From Okibacterium sp. HSC-33S16 (lineage in GTDB: Bacteria > Actinomycetota > Actinomycetes > Actinomycetales > Microbacteriaceae): a stretch of DNA of 64,000 nt. Below, one piece after another: positions 1,342 to 18,703 of this stretch (its first letter is position 1; every line of letters starts with the position of its first letter). Made by a program: the position numbers and the translations under genes. Location: contig NZ_JALJZZ010000001.1 of the NCBI RefSeq assembly GCF_024171565.1, positions 868,001 to 932,000 on the forward strand. Reading direction: 5' to 3'. Under the pieces are notes generated by a model that worked only from the letters and a program-made list of their open reading frames with translations, was not told the DNA's origin and did no database searches.

Positions 1342-2766
1342 TTAGACGCCGTAGTAGAGCTCGAACTCGAACGGGTGCGGGCGCTGCGCGAGCGGCTTGA
1401 TCTCGTGCTCACGCTTGTAGTCGATCCACGTCTCGATCAGGTCGCGTGTGAACACGTTGCCCTGCAGGAGGAAGTCGTGGTCGGCTTCGAGGGCCTGGAG
1501 TGCGCCTTCGAGTGACGACGGCACCTGCGGGATGCTCTTCGCCTCTTCGGGGGGCAGCTCGTAGAGGTCCTTGTCGACGGGCTCGTGCGGCTCGATGCGG
1601 TTCTTGATTCCGTCGAGGCCAGCCATCAGCTGAGCGGCGAAGGCGAGGTACGGGTTACCCGAGGCGTCGGGGGCGCGGAACTCAATGCGCTTGGCCTTAG
1701 GGTTCGTTCCGGTAATCGGGATGCGGATCGATGCTGAGCGGTTACCGGCGGAGTACACCAGGTTGACCGGAGCTTCGAAGCCGGGCACGAGCCGGTGGTA
1801 GCTGTTGACGGTCGGGTTGGTGAACGCGAGCACAGCAGGGGCGTGCTTGAGCAGGCCACCGATGTACCAGCGGGCAACGTCGGACAGTCCGCCGTATCCG
1901 GCCTCGTCGTAGAACAGGGGCTGTCCGCCGTTCCAGAGGGACTGGTGGACGTGCATACCCGAGCCGTTGTCGCCGAAGAGCGGCTTCGGCATGAAGGTGG
2001 CCGTCTTGCCCCACTGGTGGGCGGTGTTCTTGACGATGTACTTGAACTTCAGGATGTCATCGGCGGAGTGGGTCATCGTGTCGAACCGGTAGTTGATCTC
2101 ACCCTGGCCTGCGGTGCCAACTTCGTGGTGGCTGCGCTCGAGAATCAGGCCGGCGTCGGAGAGCTTGAGGCAGATGTCGTCGCGCAGGTCAGCGTGCTGG
2201 TCGACCGGGCTGACGGGGAAGTAGCCACCCTTGTACGGCGTCTTGTTGGCGAGGTTTCCGCCGGGCTCTTCACGTCCGGAGTTCCAGGCGCCTTCGCTGG
2301 AGTCGACCGAGTAGGAGCTGGAGTGCTGGTTGATCTCGTAGCGTACGTCGTCGAAGATGTAGAACTCTGCCTCAGGCGCGAAGAACGCGGTGTCAGCGAT
2401 TCCCGTCGAAGCCAGGTACTTCTCAGCCTTCTTGGCCACCTGGCGCGGGTCCTTCGCATAGATCTCGCCATTACGGGGGTTGTAGATGTCGAAGATGATG
2501 ATGAGCGTGCGCTCGATGCGGAACGGGTCAATGTACGCCGTCGTCACATCGGGGATCAGCTGCATGTCCGACTCGTGGATGCTCGCGAATCCCCGGATCG
2601 ACGATCCGTCGAACAGCTGTCCGACCGTGAAGAACTCCTCGTCGACTGTCGATGCCGGGATGTTGAAGTGCTGCTGAACACCGGGAAGATCGGTGAATCG
2701 GATGTCGACGAACTTAACGTCGGTGTCCTTGATGAACTTAAGCACCTCGGATGAATCGCTGAACAT
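1342..2766 (-). CDS. glnA: Glutamine synthetase, type I
   Basis: This 474-residue cytoplasmic enzyme condenses glutamate and ammonia with ATP to glutamine. It is the usual length for bacterial GSI; the dodecameric assembly is known from the family. [10 protein letters not shown] and the later NRSASIRIP are GSI active-site signatures. DLYELPPEE near residue 402 is the tyrosine site that GlnE adenylylates, placing the protein in the regulated GSI-beta class. I chose the ATG giving [11 protein letters not shown] because it has the family length and a GGAG Shine-Dalgarno 9 nt upstream. An upstream in-frame start would add 14 unconserved residues. The upstream gap carries a complete GlnR-type operator, so transcription should respond to nitrogen. 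Confidence 0.97.
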
Positions 2767-2839
2767 ATGGAGAACTCCAAAAGAAGGTTGGTACCGAGAA
2801 GACTGCAACCTGCAGCCTCTTGAAGGGTATGCACCCGGG

Positions 2840-2877
2840 GTTACCCGCCAGTGACACCCATGTTTCTGGCATGTTAC
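2840..2877 (-). promoter_or_regulatory. GlnR-type operator upstream of glnA
   Basis: Read on the minus strand, the region is GTAAC-N6-GAAAC-N6-GTCAC-N6-GTAAC. This is the GTnAC-N6-GAAAC-N6-GTnAC-N6-GAAAC layout known for the actinobacterial nitrogen regulator GlnR, with exact 6-bp spacing throughout and only the last half-site degenerate. It sits 74 bp before the glnA start. A TACCCT that could be a -10 lies about 10 bp downstream of it. The operator also lies beside the -10 of the divergent RDD gene. No glnR gene is in the window. Confidence 0.8.
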
Positions 2878-2892
2878 ACGTCTCGTGGCCCG

Positions 2893-2898
2893 TAGGAT
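2893..2898 (+). promoter_or_regulatory. -10 element TAGGAT, likely leaderless promoter of the RDD gene
   Basis: TAGGAT fits the actinobacterial TANNNT consensus and ends exactly 6 nt before the ATG, so transcription would begin at or next to the start codon. There is no Shine-Dalgarno sequence. Confidence 0.5.
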
Positions 2899-2904
2899 TT
2901 AACA

Positions 2905-3333
2905 ATGCCTGCGAACACCCGACCTCCAGCTTCATCCGGCGACATTGCGCCGAGCCGATACCCGGGGGAGCGTCTGGGGCTTCCCGAGCGTGGGCAGCAC
3001 AGCGTTGCCCGTGCGGGACGTCGCATCGGCGCGCTCGTCGTGGACTGGGGATTGGCCATGCTGGTGTCGGCGATGTTCTTCAGCTCTGAAGCTTGGGCGA
3101 ACACCGCACTTTTCGCGATCATGCAGATCGTTTTCCTGCCCACACTCGGCGGAAGCCTCGGCCACCGCCTCTGGGGGCTGCGGCTCATCCGTGTGACGGG
3201 TGGCTGGGTGGGAGCGTGGCGGCCGCTCGTACGCACGCTTCTGCTCGTGATCGTGGTGCCCGCGCTGGTCTGGGATTCAGACCAGCGCGGTTTCCACGAC
3301 AAGGTGGCGGGAACGGTACTTATCCGCGCCTGA
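2905..3333 (+). CDS. RDD family membrane protein
   Basis: This 142-residue protein has the RDD-domain arrangement: an N-terminal amphipathic stretch with an Arg-Arg pair (ARAGRRIGALVVDW, about residues 36-49), then hydrophobic segments near residues 43-60, 65-80 and 105-122, with the LGHRLWGLRLIR loop between them. The RDD family is found in many bacterial membranes; members have been linked to ion or sodium/proton exchange but most are uncharacterised. The N-terminal 35 residues are proline- and serine-rich and probably cytoplasmic. It is divergent from glnA and shares its promoter region, so the GlnR operator might also affect it. No specific substrate can be assigned. Confidence 0.85.
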   Translation: MPANTRPPASSGDIAPSRYPGERLGLPERGQHSVARAGRRIGALVVDWGLAMLVSAMFFSSEAWANTALFAIMQIVFLPTLGGSLGHRLWGLRLIRVTGGWVGAWRPLVRTLLLVIVVPALVWDSDQRGFHDKVAGTVLIRA

Positions 3334-3356
3334 GAGGGTGTGCGGCTCAGGAAAAG

Positions 3357-4067
3357 TTACCTGGCGCGCTGCGGCTTCACCTTGAACGGGTCGACACCCT
3401 TCGGAATGGGAAGTCCGGTGGAGCTGAGCGAGGACAGACGGTTCATTACCGCGAGGGTCTCAGGCTTGGTCAGGGTCGGCTTCACCTTGCGGACCGAACG
3501 AGTGAGCTTGTAGAGCGGCACAGAGTCCTCGTCCGGACCAACGAACAACACGGTAACCGGGACGTTCGGAAGAACGCGGTTCACCTTACGCTTTTCGTCT
3601 TCAACGAGACGCGATGCGCGCGAGCGTGGGCCTTCTCCGACCAGAACGACACCGCCGCGACCGACCGCGCGGTATACGGCATCCTGCGTCTTCGCGTTTG
3701 CATTTACGGGCATTTCGCTACCCTGCCATCCACGCGGAAGCGAGCTGCGGAACACCGCCCCCACAGCACCAGGCTGACCGGAGATCTGGCTGTATGCGGC
3801 TTTTTCGGCTTTGCGGCCGAGGATAATCATGGCCGCGAGGATACCGGCGAGGACGCCTGCGATGATCCAGAGGACCATGCCGAAGACGCTGCCGCCGGAG
3901 ATCAGGAAGGCGAGCACGACGGAAATCGCAATGCTTCCGACGAATCCGAGGAGGATCCACCAGACAGCTGTCTTGTCGTAGCGGCGGGTCATTTGGAACA
4001 CCTGCCACATTTGCTTCAAGCGGCCTGGTTCCTTCGCAGCCTTAGCTGGCTTTTCTTTGCGTGCCAT
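3357..4067 (-). CDS. DUF4191 domain-containing membrane protein
   Basis: This 236-residue protein belongs to the actinobacterial DUF4191 family, which has no assigned function. After a Lys/Ala-rich cytoplasmic N-terminus come two hydrophobic segments (about residues 35-58 and 63-84), then a soluble C-terminal domain of about 150 residues rich in basic residues (VEDEKRKVNRVLPNVPV and SVRKVKPTLTKPETL). The start codon gives the usual MARKEKPAK-type beginning. In many actinobacteria this gene lies close to glnA and the lipoate synthesis genes; here glnA is close but lipA/lipB are not in the window. It is convergent with the RDD gene, with 23 bp between stops. Confidence 0.85.
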   Translation of the reverse strand: MARKEKPAKAAKEPGRLKQMWQVFQMTRRYDKTAVWWILLGFVGSIAISVVLAFLISGGSVFGMVLWIIAGVLAGILAAMIILGRKAEKAAYSQISGQPGAVGAVFRSSLPRGWQGSEMPVNANAKTQDAVYRAVGRGGVVLVGEGPRSRASRLVEDEKRKVNRVLPNVPVTVLFVGPDEDSVPLYKLTRSVRKVKPTLTKPETLAVMNRLSSLSSTGLPIPKGVDPFKVKPQRAR

Positions 4068-4248
4068 GCCTTCAAGGATACCGGCATCCGGACCCCTCGA
4101 ATGTGCCGGACTGCGCGCTCACCGCGAACGGGCATTTCCTGAACTGTTCCCTGACCGCCGCGGGTTGCTCACAACAGACCGGGGCGCGTCACGGGGCTCA
4201 GAGTGTGTCTGGAACAATCTCAGGCACGGGCCGCGAAAGGCGACGAAC

Positions 4249-5700
4249 GTGAAGAATCCTGGGCCGGCAACGGCGGCGGTAGCATCTCTCCCCGAGACAG
4301 AGTTGTGCGGCTTTCGGCTCGTACGGATTATCAGCCACAACGCGACAGTAACGTCGTGGGTGGCCAGCCCAAGTGGCCACGGCACCGGGCACGATCCGGA
4401 GGACGCGACGCCCCTCGAAGGATCTGTGACGCTGAGCAGGTTCACAGAGGTCGGCGCCGCCGCCATTCCGCCCGCCATGCTGAGCGTTTCGTCGTCGTTT
4501 CTGCAGCGAGCCCTCGACGTGGCGACCGACGGCAGCGGTGCCGTGGTGCTGATCACCGAGCGAACGCACGGTACCCTCGCGGAGCTGTTCGACCTGCGGA
4601 CAGCGGTGCGCCTGGGGGAGGCGGTGACGATCCTCGCTCCCGTGGCGGCGGGTATCCATGCGTTGCATCGTGAGGGATATACCCACGGCGGCCTCTCACC
4701 CGCCACTGTGGCGTTCACATCGGATGGCCGACCGCTTGTGACGCTGCTCTCGGACACCATGTCTTCTGCACCAGCCTGTACCGAGGAGAGTGACCTCGCA
4801 GACCTCAGGAAGCTCATCAGCCTCGTGCTCGGTCGGAGTGACGCCGCAGGGAGCGAGCCGGTCGAGGCGCTCCTCCGCTGGCTCGAGCGAAGCGACGCCC
4901 CTCGGCTGACACCCGACTTTTTCACCCAACTCGACCTGCGGCTCTTTGCACTCGCGGAGCCCGCGCCCATTTCGTTCGCAGCAGAGTCGGCCGACGTGAG
5001 AACTCGTGCGGAATCACCGGTGGCTGCGTTCCACATTCTGCGGGAGCGCACACGAGAAGACCGAGGGACAGCGGACGCCGGCGATCGAGTACCGCGGTTC
5101 CTCGCTGGACTCGGATCCTGGGCGGAGGCCGTGGGTGGTTTCTCGATGAGCGACAACCTCAGATCGCGATTCGCCGGTATTGGGGGCTGGCTCGCCCGCA
5201 CTCTTCGGGGGCGGGCAGCGGTCCTCATTGTCGGAACGGCGGTTGCCATGGTGGCGGTGTGGGGCGGTCTTGCGCTTGTGCCGGCTGCCGACACACCCAC
5301 GAACGCCGCCGATCGGGGGAGCAATGTCGAACCTGTAGCGAACGTCGCAGCGACGAACGCGGAGACAACGGCAATTGAGTCGGACGACCCGATCCCCGCG
5401 CTCGTGGGTTTGCTTGCCCTGCGATCCCGTTGCCTGCAGAGCGGCAACGATGGGTGCCTGAATATCGTGGACGAACCCAACTCTGCGGCCGAGGCAACGG
5501 ACCAGCACGCAATGGATGTGTCTGGCGAGACGTTTCTCCCGTTGCCGATCGAGCCGGCCCAGGCGGAGCTGCTGCAACGCACCGGGCATGCTGCGCTTTT
5601 TCGGGTTAAGCCCGGCGGCAAAGAAAGCCAGCCGGTGCTCGTCCTCATCATGAAGACGACCACCGGCTGGCGGGTCCGGGACCTTGCGGTGCCGGGATAA
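4249..5700 (+). CDS. Membrane-anchored protein kinase-like protein, probable pseudokinase
   Basis: The protein has 483 residues when started at the GTG preceded by GAAAGG at 9 nt. Residues about 20-235 look like a degenerate Ser/Thr protein kinase domain. GYTHGGLSP (residues 143-151) stands where active kinases have HRDLKP, so the catalytic aspartate is missing. No DFG motif follows (VTLLSD instead), and the glycine loop and lysine cannot be recognised. One transmembrane helix lies at about 323-344, followed by a roughly 140-residue domain that should be outside the cell. Such an arrangement fits a sensor or scaffold rather than an enzyme. It is convergent with sucB, with only 9 bp between stops. 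The kinase assignment rests on the HxxLxP motif and layout, so it is moderate. Confidence 0.65.
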   Translation: MKNPGPATAAVASLPETELCGFRLVRIISHNATVTSWVASPSGHGTGHDPEDATPLEGSVTLSRFTEVGAAAIPPAMLSVSSSFLQRALDVATDGSGAVVLITERTHGTLAELFDLRTAVRLGEAVTILAPVAAGIHALHREGYTHGGLSPATVAFTSDGRPLVTLLSDTMSSAPACTEESDLADLRKLISLVLGRSDAAGSEPVEALLRWLERSDAPRLTPDFFTQLDLRLFALAEPAPISFAAESADVRTRAESPVAAFHILRERTREDRGTADAGDRVPRFLAGLGSWAEAVGGFSMSDNLRSRFAGIGGWLARTLRGRAAVLIVGTAVAMVAVWGGLALVPAADTPTNAADRGSNVEPVANVAATNAETTAIESDDPIPALVGLLALRSRCLQSGNDGCLNIVDEPNSAAEATDQHAMDVSGETFLPLPIEPAQAELLQRTGHAALFRVKPGGKESQPVLVLIMKTTTGWRVRDLAVPG

Positions 5701-12665: not shown

Positions 12666-12820
12666 GATAGTAAGGACCCGTTCAGGTTCCCATGGTGTGC
12701 ACGTTGCGAAACGCACACGCCGCGGGGGACTTGACATGGGTCCTAGTAATGTCCGAAAACAATCTGGGCCCACGAGCGGGTTCTGGCGACATCCCAGCTC
12801 AGGGACTGAAAGGTGCTCTT

Positions 12821-14101
12821 ATGGCCACCAAGGCCGCACAAACTTCGGCAGAAGAAGAACAGACCGCTGTCGCAACGGCAGCGGTGAAGGCTCCGGCCGT
12901 CAAAAAGATGACCGCAGCAGCGAAGGCAAAGGCGGAGAAGGCCGCGGCAGCAGCCGCTGAAGCGCCCGCCAAGGCCGCCCCCGCAAAGCGGGGCGCAAAG
13001 AAGAAGGCCACCGACGACGTGGAGGAGGCCGCCCTGGCGCCTGACGTCATCGAAGACGACCACGACGACGAAGACGACGCGAAGAAGAGCACGATCGCCA
13101 CCGAGGCACTGCCTCAGGGTGCGCTCGTCCTCTCCGCGACCGACGACGAAGATGAAGTTCCGGTTTACTCGTCAGCGATCACTGGCGCAACAGCCGACCC
13201 GGTCAAGGACTACCTGAAGCAGATCGGAAAGGTTGCGCTCCTCAACGCGGCTGAAGAGGTCGAACTTGCGATGCGTATCGAGGCCGGCCTGTTCGCCGAG
13301 GACAAGCTGTCTCAAATGGACGACGCTGCAAAGCGCACCCAGCTGGGCCGCGAGCTGACCTGGGTTGCCAAGGACGGCGCGCGCGCGAAGAGCCACCTGC
13401 TCGGAGCAAACCTCCGCCTCGTCGTCTCCCTGGCGAAGCGCTACACAGGCCGTGGGATGCAGTTCCTTGACCTGATTCAGGAAGGGAACCTGGGCCTCAT
13501 CCGCGCCGTCGAGAAGTTCGACTACACGAAGGGCTTCAAATTCTCGACCTACGCAACGTGGTGGATCCGTCAGGCAATCACCCGCGCGATGGCCGACCAG
13601 GCCCGCACCATTCGTATTCCGGTGCACATGGTCGAGGTCATCAACAAGCTCGCCCGCGTCCAGCGGCAGATGCTGCAGGATCTGGGCCGCGAGCCCACCC
13701 CTGAAGAGCTCAGCCGCGAACTGGACATGACCCCTGAGAAGGTCATCGAGGTGCAGAAGTACGGACGCGAGCCCATCTCGCTGCACACCCCGCTTGGCGA
13801 GGATGGCGACAGTGAATTCGGAGACCTCATCGAGGACACCGAGGCGGTCGTTCCTGCCGACGCCGTTGGTTTCACGATGTTGCAGAAGCAGCTCGAAAGT
13901 CTCCTCGACTCGTTGAGCGAACGCGAGGCCGGAGTAATCCGGATGCGCTTCGGACTTGGCGACGGCATGCCGAAGACTCTCGACCAGATTGGCGACACCT
14001 TCGGCGTCACGCGCGAACGTATCCGCCAGATCGAATCGAAGACCATGGCCAAGCTGCGCCACCCGTCCCGCTCGCAGTCTCTTCGGGACTACCTTGAGTA
14101 A
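12821..14101 (+). CDS. sigA: Principal RNA polymerase sigma factor (SigA/RpoD/HrdB type)
   Basis: This 426-residue housekeeping sigma-70 factor directs RNA polymerase to -10/-35 promoters. The first about 115 residues are a Lys/Ala-rich, then acidic (DDHDDEDDA) extension typical of actinobacterial SigA. Region 1.2 follows ([16 protein letters not shown]), region 2 ([52 protein letters not shown], for core binding and -10 recognition), region 3 ([14 protein letters not shown]) and region 4 ([19 protein letters not shown], the -35 helix-turn-helix). The ATG chosen has GAAAGG 7 nt upstream; an earlier in-frame ATG has no ribosome site. Its stop codon overlaps the start of murT. Confidence 0.96.
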
Positions 14102-15389
14102 ACCGACGGGTCTTCATTACGTCCTTCCCATCCTCGCCGGCCGTGTGACGCGCTTCGCCACACGGCTGCGCGGCGGTGGCAGCGCGATGCCCGGTGTCGT
14201 GGTGCAGAAGCTTGCTCCGCACATCATGCGGGATGTCGCATCACAGCTGCCGTACGGCGTTGTTTTTGTCCTCGGATCGAACGGTAAGTCGACAACGACG
14301 AACTTGCTCTCGGCGATCATGCGTGAGCACGGTCTTCGGGTCTTCACCAACCCGTCTGGGGCGAACATGCCGCAAGGCATCGCCTCAGCGATCCTGGCGG
14401 AAACCAGCCTGACCGGTCGCATGGATGCTGACATCGCGATCCTGGAGATCGACGAGGGCTACGGTGCCGTCATTGCGCGGCAGCTCAAGCCGGCGACCGC
14501 CGTCATCCTGAACCTCCTCGTTGACCAGATCTACCGTTTTGGTGAGCCGGACAAGGTCGCTCAGATGTTCCGCGGGATCGCCGCTGAGATCACTTCCTCG
14601 ATCGTTCTGAACCGCGACGATAACTTCCTCGGCAAGCTCGGCAGCGAGCTCGAGGCGGAAGGTCGCCTTCAGGTCGAGTACTTTGGTGCGACGCCAGAGG
14701 TACAGGCCTCCGCGCCCCACGGCCAGGTATCCGCTCGGGATTTCAGCGACGTCGCAGCCGCCGCATCGCGCGAGGCTGCTGCTGAGGTCGTCCATGCGGA
14801 CGGATACGACGCTCGGATCTCCTGGGCAGGCACCGTGTACGACATTCGCATGCCGTCACGCGGTTTGCACTATGCCGTCGACATCGCAGCAGCGTTCACT
14901 CTCGCCGCCCGCAACCTGGGTGACAAGTTCGACATCCAGCGGGCGATCACCGCTGTGCAGACGACCAAGACCGTTTACGGTCGGGGAGAAATCCTCCAGG
15001 TCAATGGCGTTGAGGTCGAGATCCTCATGTTGAAGAACCTCGCAAGCCTGCAGCTGAACCTCGATTACCTTCAGGAGACTCCCGAGTCAGTTCTGTTCGC
15101 GTACGACGAGTCGAGTAAAGACCCGTCCTGGTTGTATGCGGCGGATCTCAGCAAGCTTGACCACGTCGACGTCATCTCGGGGCCAAAGGGCGCTTTCGTT
15201 GCGCTCCGGCTGGCATACGAAGGCAAAGATTTCGGCGTGATTGAGCCCGACATCACGAAGGCAGTCCAACGGATGCTCGACGGGCCACGGCCCACGAGCG
15301 GACGTCACACCTTCTTCCTCGACTACGACCAGATGATGGCTACCCGCCGCTATCTGGGCTACAAAGACCTGGAAGCGGGTGCAGCATGA
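14094..15389 (+). CDS. murT: MurT-like Mur ligase (DUF1727) lacking the zinc ribbon
   Basis: This 431-residue protein is homologous to MurT, which with GatD amidates the alpha-carboxyl of D-Glu in lipid II. The ATP loop is GSNGKST (61-67). The ligase centre is LEIDEG (118-122) and [13 protein letters not shown] (140-152), and the C-terminal DUF1727 domain covers about 300-425. It contains no cysteine: the Cys4 zinc ribbon known from S. aureus MurT is replaced by a cysteine-free Ala-rich stretch (about 200-250). The usual DGRD-x-SW loop is shortened to SSKDPSW (340-346). I chose TTG because the family N-terminal helix begins right there ([15 protein letters not shown]). The TTG overlaps the sigA stop by 8 bp; GTG at 14145 and ATG at 14187 would cut into that helix. 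It overlaps gatD by ATGA. Confidence 0.85.
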
Positions 15390-16120
15390 CAATCTCGGTT
15401 CTGGAACTTTATCCCGCTCACCTGTCGCTGAACGGTGACGTTGGCAACCGAACGGCACTGGTTCGCCGAATGCGTCTGGCGGGCATCGACGTCGCGGAGC
15501 ACGCTTACCACCCGGGCGATACGCTGCCGGACACCCCGGACATCGTCACCATCGGAACAGGCACCTCGAGCGCTCAGCGTTCGCTTGCCTCGGACATCGC
15601 ACGGCTCGCTCCGCTCCTGGCCGAGTGGTCTGAGGCTGGTGTCGTGATCTTCGCGGCCGGTGCGGGGTTCCATCTTCTCAGCGCCTCCGTGCGGTTCGGC
15701 GCTGACGAGGTTATCCCTGGCGCGGGCGTCTTCGCGGGAAGTGCAGACGCATCCCGACCACGCATCATTACCGAGGCCTTCGCGGTCGAGAGCGACTTCG
15801 GCCTGCTGATCGGTACCGAAAACCACACATCGGTCTTTGTGGGTCGTCCCGATCAGAAGCCGATCGGACGCGTACGCCACGGCGTCGGCAATGGTGACGG
15901 GACGGACGGGGCTGTCGTCAACAACAGCTTCGGTACCCATCTTCATGGTCCCGCACTCGTTCTCAACCCCTCACTGGCCGACCACTTGATCGGTCTGGCG
16001 ACCGGACGGGCAGGTGTTGATTACGTCAGGAGCGGTGAGCACGATGCCCTCGATAAGACGGTGGAGCTGGCTCGATCGATCCTTATCAACAAGCTGCCGT
16101 CCAGCGGACAGAAGTCCTGA
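15386..16120 (+). CDS. gatD: GatD-like class I glutamine amidotransferase homolog without catalytic cysteine
   Basis: This 244-residue protein lines up along its whole length with GatD, the glutaminase partner of MurT: GDVGNRTALVRR (18-28), IGTENHT (142-148) and SFGTHLHGP with the conserved His187. The nucleophile position is changed. Active GatD has ICGGYQFLG, while here FAAGAGFHLLS (89-99) puts Gly92 where Cys94 of S. aureus GatD stands. The protein has no cysteine anywhere, so it cannot work as a cysteine glutaminase. The GGGSDREQ motif of active enzymes is altered too (GTGTSSAQ). Start and murT stop overlap as ATGA, implying equal synthesis. A strong terminator follows. See the findings for a possible role in group B peptidoglycan. 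Confidence 0.88.
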   Translation: MTISVLELYPAHLSLNGDVGNRTALVRRMRLAGIDVAEHAYHPGDTLPDTPDIVTIGTGTSSAQRSLASDIARLAPLLAEWSEAGVVIFAAGAGFHLLSASVRFGADEVIPGAGVFAGSADASRPRIITEAFAVESDFGLLIGTENHTSVFVGRPDQKPIGRVRHGVGNGDGTDGAVVNNSFGTHLHGPALVLNPSLADHLIGLATGRAGVDYVRSGEHDALDKTVELARSILINKLPSSGQKS

Positions 16121-16621: not shown

Positions 16622-18703
16622 GTGAGTTCTGACTATTCCGCCCGCCATCTTTCCGTGCTCGAGGGCCTCGAGGCGGTACGCAAGCGCCCCGGAATGTATA
16701 TCGGGTCGACGGACTCCCGGGGACTCATGCACTGCCTGTGGGAGATCATCGACAACTCGGTCGACGAAGCCCTCGGCGGACACGGCGACCACATCGACGT
16801 CGTGCTTCACTCCGACGGCAGCGTCGAAGTCCGCGACCGCGCCCGTGGCATCCCCGTCGACATTGAACCGAAGACGGGGCTCAGCGGCGTTGAGGTCGTC
16901 TTCACGAAGCTGCACGCCGGCGGTAAGTTCGGGTCGGGTTCATACGCGGCCTCCGGTGGGCTGCACGGCGTCGGTGCGTCCGTCGTAAACGCCCTCAGCG
17001 AGCGCCTTGATGTCGAGGTGGACCGCGACGGCAAAACCTGGGCCATGTCCTTCCACCGCGGTGAGCCGGGCATCTTCGATGACAAGGGCAAAGAGCCCAG
17101 TCCGGATGCCACATTCACTCCATTCGAATTCGGTAGCGAACTGCGCGTCGTCGGCAAGGTGAAGAAAGGTGTCACCGGCTCTCGTGTGCGCTACTGGGCG
17201 GATCGACAGATCTTCACCAAGGGCGCCGAGTTCCAGATGGAGGACCTCGTGGGTCGGGCCCGGCAGACAGCGTTCCTCATCCCGGGTCTGGCACTCACAA
17301 TCGATGACCGCCGGTCGCCGGAGGGCACCTCCCACCTCTTCCAGTACGAGGGCGGAATCTCCGAGTTTGTTGAACACCTCGCCACTGACACCCCGGTGAC
17401 CGACGTGTGGCGGCTCCAGGGGTCCGGAACATTCACGGAGACGGTTCCTGTTCTCAACGACCACGGTGCGATGGTGCCAACCGAGCTCGAGCGCACCTGC
17501 GAGGTCGACATCGCCCTGCGCTGGGGCACCGGTTACGACACCGTCTCGAAGAGCTTCGTGAACATCATTGCGACGCCGAAGGGCGGTTCGCACCAACTCG
17601 GTTTCGACCAGGGCCTGCTCAAGGTCCTGCGCCAGCAGGTCGAAGCCAACGCGCGCCGGCTCAAGGTCGGCAACGACAAGCTCGAGAAAGACGACATTCT
17701 CGCTGGCCTCACCGCCGTGCTGACCGTTCGCCTGCCCGAGCCGCAGTTCGAAGGGCAGACCAAAGAGGTGCTTGGCACGCCCGCGGCCCGCAACATCGTG
17801 TCTGCCGTCGTCACGAAGGCGCTGAAAGAGCGCTTCGCCTCGTCGAAGCGTGACGACAAGGCGCAGACGGCCCTCGTGCTCGACAAGATCGTCTCCGAGA
17901 TGAAGTCGCGCATTTCCGCGCGCGCACACAAGGAGACCCAGCGGCGAAAGAACGCTCTGGAGAGTTCAACCCTCCCGGCAAAGCTCGTCGACTGCCGCTC
18001 CAACGACGTCGCAAACAGCGAACTGCTCATTGTGGAGGGCGACTCCGCACTGGGCACCGCGAAGAATGCACGCGACAGCGAGTACCAGGCCCTTCTCCCG
18101 ATTCGTGGGAAGATTTTGAACGTCCAGAAGGCATCCGTTTCAGACATGTTGTCCAATAGCGAGTGTGCATCAATCATTCAGGTGATCGGTGCCGGCTCCG
18201 GACGAAGCTTCGATCTGAGCGCGGCCCGATACGGCAAGGTCATTATTATGAGCGACGCGGATGTCGATGGCGCGCACATTCGCACGCTTCTGTTGACGCT
18301 GTTCTTCCGGTACATGCGACCGATGATCGCGGAGGGGCGGGTCTTCGCCGCCGTTCCGCCGCTCCACCGGGTGATCGTGATCAATCCTGGGTCCAAACCC
18401 AACGACACGATTTACACCTACTCGGAGCAGGAACTGCACGCGGTGCTTGCCGACCTGAAGAAGAGGAACAAGCGGTACATGGAGCCGATCCAGCGGTACA
18501 AGGGCCTGGGTGAAATGGATGCCGACCAGCTGGCGACCACCACCATGGACCGGCGCCACCGCACACTGCGTCGAGTGCAGGTGCCCGATGCCGAGCAAGC
18601 TGCGCACGTGTTCGAGCTGCTCATGGGCAACGATGTTGCGCCGCGCAAGGAATTCATCATCGACAGTTCCGACCGGCTCAACCGGGATCGGATCGACGCG
18701 TAG
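16622..18703 (+). CDS. parE: DNA topoisomerase IV subunit B (GyrB/ParE family)
   Basis: This 693-residue ATPase subunit of a type IIA topoisomerase should separate linked daughter chromosomes together with the parC product downstream. The GHKL ATPase contains EIIDNSVDEALGG (Asn and Glu for Mg-ATP), RDRARGIPVDI and the lid GLHGVGASVVNALS. The transducer lies at about 230-400. The Toprim domain has VEGDSALGTAKNARD and IIMSDADVDGAHIRTLLL (the DxD metal site). The C-terminus has RYKGLGEMDADQL. I call it ParE rather than GyrB because of its pairing with a GyrA-type subunit here and the sigA neighbourhood known in actinobacteria; gyrB is expected elsewhere beside dnaA/recF. Confidence 0.9.
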   Translation: MSSDYSARHLSVLEGLEAVRKRPGMYIGSTDSRGLMHCLWEIIDNSVDEALGGHGDHIDVVLHSDGSVEVRDRARGIPVDIEPKTGLSGVEVVFTKLHAGGKFGSGSYAASGGLHGVGASVVNALSERLDVEVDRDGKTWAMSFHRGEPGIFDDKGKEPSPDATFTPFEFGSELRVVGKVKKGVTGSRVRYWADRQIFTKGAEFQMEDLVGRARQTAFLIPGLALTIDDRRSPEGTSHLFQYEGGISEFVEHLATDTPVTDVWRLQGSGTFTETVPVLNDHGAMVPTELERTCEVDIALRWGTGYDTVSKSFVNIIATPKGGSHQLGFDQGLLKVLRQQVEANARRLKVGNDKLEKDDILAGLTAVLTVRLPEPQFEGQTKEVLGTPAARNIVSAVVTKALKERFASSKRDDKAQTALVLDKIVSEMKSRISARAHKETQRRKNALESSTLPAKLVDCRSNDVANSELLIVEGDSALGTAKNARDSEYQALLPIRGKILNVQKASVSDMLSNSECASIIQVIGAGSGRSFDLSAARYGKVIIMSDADVDGAHIRTLLLTLFFRYMRPMIAEGRVFAAVPPLHRVIVINPGSKPNDTIYTYSEQELHAVLADLKKRNKRYMEPIQRYKGLGEMDADQLATTTMDRRHRTLRRVQVPDAEQAAHVFELLMGNDVAPRKEFIIDSSDRLNRDRIDA

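Follow-up and report, generated by a model that had tools for sequence, protein, structure and literature searches.

The window analyzed here, a stretch of 64,000 nucleotides from Okibacterium sp. HSC-33S16, carries a murT-like and a gatD-like gene that lie adjacent and co-oriented between rpoD and parE, with open reading frames overlapping by ATGA (Table 1). Pfam detects Mur_ligase_M in the window MurT (E = 1.7e-10) and GATase_3 in the window GatD (E = 1.1e-13), and the MurT_C match scores 20.8 bits, under the curated cut-off of 25. Against the NCBIfam models for lipid II isoglutaminyl synthase MurT/GatD (NF045635/NF045636), the window MurT reaches 108.7 bits (cut-off 800), and the window GatD reaches 66.4 bits with the best GatD model (cut-off 450) and 58.5 with another (cut-off 400); the GatD miss says little alone, because all 198 genomes of the order, active-type ones included, miss the cut-off. 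The closest solved structures are the MurT/GatD chains of Staphylococcus aureus and Streptococcus pneumoniae. Neither window protein contains a single Cys, and the window segment FAAGAGFHLL aligns with LTICGGYQFL of S. aureus GatD, placing Gly92 at catalytic Cys94. An earlier note on this DNA had located a MurT/GatD pair without an ammonia-producing site at 14094–16120; the alignment confirms this, and the coordinates are exactly those of the two reading frames. This pair is the single MurT_C match in the window genome, which encodes five Mur_ligase_M proteins besides the pair's MurT.

Table 1 Features of the murT-gatD locus in the window
Feature	Position	Strand	Remarks
rpoD/sigA-like sigma factor gene	12692..14101	+	left border of the slot
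murT-like gene	14094..15389	+	431 aa; TTG start overlaps rpoD end
MurT P-loop	14274..14300	+	residues 61-69; present in 145/145 typed MurTs
MurT V143	14520..14522	+	equivalent to S. pneumoniae Arg135; beside opening facing GatD
MurT D343	15120..15122	+	equivalent to S. pneumoniae Asp355 / S. aureus Asp349; faces GatD site
gatD-like gene, pseudo-glutaminase	15386..16120	+	244 aa; ATG start
GatD N16	15431..15433	+	equivalent to S. pneumoniae Tyr30, channel plug; by alignment
GatD G92	15659..15661	+	at catalytic Cys (S. aureus Cys94, S. pneumoniae Cys107); by alignment
GatD R126	15761..15763	+	equivalent to S. pneumoniae Arg142, glutamine capture; by alignment
GatD H187	15944..15946	+	catalytic His; by alignment
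parE/gyrB-like gene	16622..18703	+	right border of the slot

The window's family, labeled f1, is most likely Microbacteriaceae, because Canibacter oris, which is placed in that family (PMC8165742), sits among the f1 genomes in both the MurT and the parE trees. A GatD match occurs in 90 of 120 f1 genomes, and in their alignment (90 of 96 places) the Cys position is occupied by G in 55 rows, A in 14, C in 14, S in 3, H in 2, N in 1 and T in 1. Cys is therefore missing from 76 of 90 f1 rows and from none of the 50 rows that represent nine further families of the order (50 of 65 non-f1 genomes with a match), a difference that exceeds chance. At class level, all 41 non-f1 genomes (41 of 123 with a MurT match) carry Cys and RDQ[LM]DR; seven of them repeat genomes of the order set. 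Over both sets, Cys is retained in 84 of 84 distinct non-f1 genomes. The class-level motifs were read by eye; four rows missed by the motif expression (L269, L273, L285 and L294) were classified by direct reading. When a profile of 37 Cys-less MurTs was run against 296 genomes of the class, with six candidates scored per genome, scores of at least 560 bits were confined to f1, and the best score elsewhere was 414.

Sorting the 120 f1 genomes by motifs and matches gave 49 with type I pairs (the window's type), 26 with type II, seven with type III, two odd cases, G053 on its own, 16 with the CofE-like protein described below, 12 with an active-type pair only and seven with neither; G038 (truncated) and G015 (divergent) were counted as type I, and G005, with a weak MurT match only, as neither. 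G054 and G066 each have both an active-type and a Cys-less pair. In a FastTree phylogeny of MurT (113 of 147 rows, after 34 active-type rows from outside f1 were dropped), the Cys-less types I and II form one clade with a local support of 100, and type III forms a separate clade, with long branches near it. Type III GatD has His for Cys within the motif THNALEV in six of seven genomes (the seventh was unmatched by the motif); in all seven, Leu replaces the catalytic His, and type III MurT has three to four Cys in its insertion region. Fourteen close type I/II pairs have dN/dS ratios of 0.06-0.31 in GatD and 0.01-0.20 in MurT; the single type III pair gives 0.27 and 0.33. To judge from these ratios, Cys-less GatD evolves under purifying selection, and together with the clade support they argue that the Cys-less pair is not a product of decay.

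We mapped residues by the S. pneumoniae numbering of PMC6085368, in which Arg135 lies beside the MurT opening that faces GatD, Tyr30 plugs the channel and Arg142 captures glutamine; MurT columns were compared over 145 typed rows. The gate Arg135 is conserved in 65 of 65 active-type MurTs and in 0 of 73 type I/II MurTs. The plug residue is Tyr in 64 of 64 active-type GatD rows, and among the 71 type I/II rows 53 have Asn there; the GGG oxyanion signature has its middle Gly replaced, reading GTG in the window. Retained, on the other hand, are the GatD Arg126 (70 of 71 type I/II rows) and, invariant over all 145 typed rows, the MurT equivalents of K59, N85, E110, D112, E113, N132, R140 and R304; the D136 equivalent is D or E. 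The Asp355 equivalent is kept in 73 of 73 type I/II MurTs and lost in 7 of 7 of type III; all seven type III MurTs also have Gly in place of Asn322, a residue that may contact the ribose. The second position of the P-loop is Ser in 70 of 73 type I/II MurTs and Thr in 65 of 65 active-type ones. Overall, the donor nucleophile is gone, the acceptor and ATP chemistry of MurT looks intact, and the GatD pocket keeps its capturing Arg. Loss of the MurT Zn-ribbon was rejected as a special trait, 37 of 65 active-type MurTs being likewise Cys-free in that region.

At the chromosomal level, rpoD or parE is seen next to 65 of 76 Cys-less rows, and neither gene adjoins any of the 14 active-type f1 rows or any of the 50 non-f1 rows; short 3.7 kb stretches make up nine of the 11 flankless Cys-less rows and 31 of the 64 Cys-containing rows in this count, and L101 and L119 are genuine exceptions, with a Cys-less pair lacking either flank. 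The seven type III loci (L118, L120, L208, L215, L216, L218 and L225) also occupy the rpoD-parE slot, and four of the seven genomes have an ATP-grasp gene. Where the type I/II pair is absent, the sigma gene was located in 42 of 43 genomes, and 40 stretches were read. Here a CofE-like protein (PF01996, ~231-238 aa) adjoins rpoD in 13 of 16 f1 genomes with a strong match; it lies one gene from rpoD in G020 and on another contig in G044 and G094, and G100 was outside the slot check. A CofE-like ligase exchanging with Cys-less MurT/GatD in one rpoD-parE slot is new here.

The slots that house the CofE-like gene also hold further genes. Racemase-like genes are present in eight of 13 such slots examined, and a diaminobutyrate-2-oxoglutarate transaminase gene stands beside the CofE-like gene in L239 (G020; 602 bits, cut-off 552) and in L223 (G057; identified by its similarity to the G020 copy). 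An ATP-grasp protein (PF14397), often a neighbor of the CofE-like gene, matches in 20 of 120 f1 genomes: 14 of 16 CofE-like, four of seven type III, two of two odd, none of 75 type I/II and none of 12 active-only genomes. As a separate observation, the f1 genome G051 (L304) is without MurT and CofE-like protein and has an empty slot; two ATPgrasp_ST proteins over the cut-off lie elsewhere in it, in a polymer-like cluster.

All 16 strong CofE-like carriers in f1 are without MurT. Among the 120 f1 genomes, 17 have a CofE-like match and 98 a MurT match (E of at most 1e-20), and only G053 has both, compared with 13.9 expected (hypergeometric p = 4e-14). The MurT absence is real, since nine MurT-less genomes have five Mur_ligase_M proteins each where G000 has six. 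Exclusivity extends beyond f1: in 184 further genomes of the order, 15 with a CofE-like domain and 65 with GatD show an overlap of 0 (expected 5.3; p = 0.001), a figure that assumes that the second, larger sample contains the first; both p values ignore kinship. On the parE tree the CofE-like label requires 14 changes, six of them forced by starred branches, and the slot content is swapped within genera g79 (G255 vs G079, G171, G269 and G309) and g85 (eight CofE-like genomes vs G106, G228 and G283). G053 itself carries, outside the slot, a divergent MurT with a Cys-rich insertion and a Cys-less GatD (L305, ~2606-5514, minus strand), with a weaker CofE-like match nearby (G053:C1:613697-614389); its slot holds two racemase-like genes.

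The f1 slot proteins score only ~30 bits against the CofE equivalog cut-off of 180.7, and a search of the PDB with the CofE-like profile gave no match. In each of the 12 places read outside f1 (of 27; L316-L327, families f6, f12 and f18), a protein of 810-933 aa ends in the CofE-like domain. Pfam recognizes an AsnB-type part in four of five fusions scanned, with none in L325, and the N-terminal Cys and SGGLDS, which we take to be AsnB signatures, are both found in eight of 12, the four lacking them belonging to family f12. Pfam sees the CofE-like part in only one of the five, below its cut-off, and the profile built here detects it with E values of 1e-40 to 1e-59. In these relatives the CofE-like domain is thus linked to a glutamine amidotransferase, and in f1 it stands alone, a parallel to the f1 MurT with its dead glutaminase. 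We infer that the CofE-like protein and MurT modify the same carboxyl.

Group B cross-links start from the α-carboxyl of D-Glu and are a taxonomic hallmark of Microbacteriaceae. As a precedent, Micrococcus extracts reportedly add glycine to the D-Glu of lipid intermediates with ATP. Among the titles and abstract openings listed in searches of the open-licence literature, no paper assigned an enzyme that starts the group B bridge. The chemistry of the known enzyme offers a starting point: S. aureus MurT/GatD acts on bactoprenol-bound precursors, probably through an acyl phosphate, and the GatD C94G substitution ends glutamine use, leaves ammonia use and keeps GatD binding important (PMC3266927). 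The C94S variant is likewise dead for glutamine-dependent amidation (PMC6113224), and S. aureus MurT could add Lys in vitro as MurE does, a result that the source mentions without showing the data (PMC3266927). A bridge of the relevant kind is described for Clavibacter michiganensis, whose B2γ peptidoglycan has D-diaminobutyrate (D-DAB) linking D-Glu to D-Ala (PMC9603630).

With moderate confidence, we propose that the window pair is an amino-acid:D-Glu α-carboxyl ligase for group B peptidoglycan. As read from the genomes, the glutaminase nucleophile is gone, the ATP/acceptor site is kept, the gate is changed, and the pair is restricted to a clade, is under purifying selection and exchanges with the CofE-like gene in the slot. 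The loss of the ammonia site together with the exchange for an unrelated ligase suggests that the pair probably joins an amino acid instead, and an amino acid replacing ammonia on activated D-Glu is the simplest account. The enzyme would be an ATP-dependent ligase derived from the lipid II amidase, in which MurT, as has been proposed for the known enzyme, activates the D-Glu α-carboxyl of the lipid-linked precursor by forming an acyl phosphate. Without the Cys nucleophile, the GGG oxyanion signature and the channel-plug Tyr, GatD would make no ammonia, and an amino acid (Gly or a bridge diamino acid, depending on the species) would attack with its amine to start the 2→4 bridge of group B. GatD would still partner MurT, and its former glutamine pocket, where the capturing Arg is kept, may now bind the amino acid; the ATP-grasp protein, where present, could add a second bridge residue. 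The substrate, the reaction, the role of the pocket and the assignment of the CofE-like protein as a ligase for the same carboxyl are all predicted from sequence comparison.

A wider and more tentative reading, which seems possible to us even though we lean against it as a whole, is that group B arose by disarming D-Glu amidation twice, once by Cys loss in MurT/GatD and once by an AsnB-type/CofE-like fusion losing its AsnB half. The disarmed ligases would use amino acids, held by the dead GatD where there is one, and would be swapped as rpoD-parE cassettes together with racemases, an ATP-grasp second ligase and diaminobutyrate synthesis; as part of the same reading, the Cys-to-His change of type III would be a separate, independent event. 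The earlier note had already suggested that the pair joins a bridge amino acid to D-Glu, and the slot neighbors and replacements (CofE-like, ATP-grasp and racemase-like genes and, twice, diaminobutyrate transaminase) fit that idea. It proved too narrow in that the pair is not the sole system: the 120 f1 genomes comprise 75 with type I/II, 16 with the non-homologous ligase, seven with His for Cys, three odd variants, 12 active-only and seven with none.

Several observations weigh against these proposals. In 12 of the 120 f1 genomes the only pair is of the active type, and seven more are without any candidate, leaving 19 without a candidate slot ligase. The rpoD-parE gap is just 10-706 bp in 11 of 11 active-only genomes examined (G061 excluded), and these active-only, empty-slot genomes may also be group B. 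Canibacter oris (L196), a named member of Microbacteriaceae, combines an active-type pair with an empty slot (74 bp gap), which touches what the earlier note had said would refute its idea, a group B species with active GatD; in the parE tree, 12 of 15 empty-slot genomes fall in a group of 13 with C. oris. Nor is the slot exclusive to wall genes: by its translations, the G049 slot (L235, 3.0 kb) encodes an amino-acid ABC transporter (binding protein, permease and ATPase) and no ligase, and in G111 type III shares the slot with three genes of different kinds. With one alanine racemase domain, no ATP-grasp match and no CofE-like match, the window genome offers no hint of the bridge residue that it uses. 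Within the enzyme, the catalytic His, useless without Cys, persists in 49 of 71 type I/II GatD rows (27 of 48 in type I, 22 of 23 in type II), and all 25 type II MurTs have Gln instead of K321, a residue close to the putative ATP-ribose loop. Structure prediction without an alignment gave mean pLDDT values of only 33 and 43. S. aureus GatD/MurT took only glutamine, or ammonia at high pH (PMC3266927), and amidated D-Glu is found among the muropeptides of C. michiganensis, a B2γ species (PMC9603630).

Amidated D-Glu also speaks for a rival reading, an ammonia-fed amidase, in which GatD serves only as a scaffold and free ammonia is what MurT continues to turn into D-isoglutamine, as S. aureus MurT with GatD C94G does when it amidates lipid II with NH3 at pH 8.5 (PMC3266927). 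We regard this as unlikely: the gate Arg135 and the plug Tyr are altered together with the Cys, the pair swaps with a protein of the CofE amino-acid-ligase family, at times beside racemase-like genes and diaminobutyrate transaminase, and a second amidase would be redundant in G054 and G066, because active-type and Cys-less pairs coexist there. It also seems improbable that the pair is an amino-acid ligase acting elsewhere, whether on a residue further along the bridge, on a different carboxyl of the stem or on a carboxylate outside the wall. CofE itself works on a cofactor (PMC10861534), the substrate is deduced from MurT homology only and some slots hold unrelated genes; against this, the eight MurT ATP/acceptor-site residues are unchanged, and the AsnB-type-fused CofE-like domain excludes GatD outside f1 too. 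That the pair is a decayed or purely regulatory pseudo-enzyme is hardly credible, given the low dN/dS ratios, the invariant MurT active site and the retained GatD Arg126, even with a Cys position that varies among G, A, S, T, N and H and a His lost in part of type I.

Compared with lipid II isoglutaminyl synthase MurT/GatD of S. aureus and S. pneumoniae, the putative ligase is alike in gene order, domain families, the eight ATP/acceptor residues, the GatD Arg and the MurT Asp facing GatD. It differs in being without the catalytic Cys, the GGG signature, the plug Tyr and the gate Arg135, and no active-type pair was seen at the rpoD-parE locus, unlike the Cys-less pair. With MurC-MurF it shares Mur_ligase_M and, as proposed here, acyl-phosphate amide chemistry with an amino-acid nucleophile; the window MurT differs from them in its MurT_C-like C-terminus and in being without the N-terminal UDP-binding domain, since its P-loop starts at residue 61 and a domain of that size has no room before it. 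CofE, the F420-0:L-glutamate ligase, and the AsnB-type/CofE-like fusions resemble the pair in the proposed task on the same carboxyl and in exclusivity with MurT or GatD, and the CofE-like slot protein is non-homologous to MurT.

The finding supplies candidate genes and a locus for the start of the group B bridge. If the ligase assignment is true, it would show a route from a glutaminase-dependent amidase to an amino-acid ligase, and two unrelated enzyme families would share one wall chemistry, much as glutamylation of folate and F420 converged (PMC10861534). Cassette exchange in one slot, if true, would account for the family's diverse bridges.

Two minor observations concern types I and II. 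At least two racemase domains were counted in 43 of 49 type I and four of 26 type II genomes (Fisher p = 7e-10); a division into Gly bridges for type I and D-amino-acid bridges for type II is nevertheless not claimed, because type I forms a single clade and type II almost does, which amounts to about one independent contrast. In the related type I genomes at L097, L103, L106, L109 and L110, the parE beside the pair is inverted relative to the usual order of the slot.

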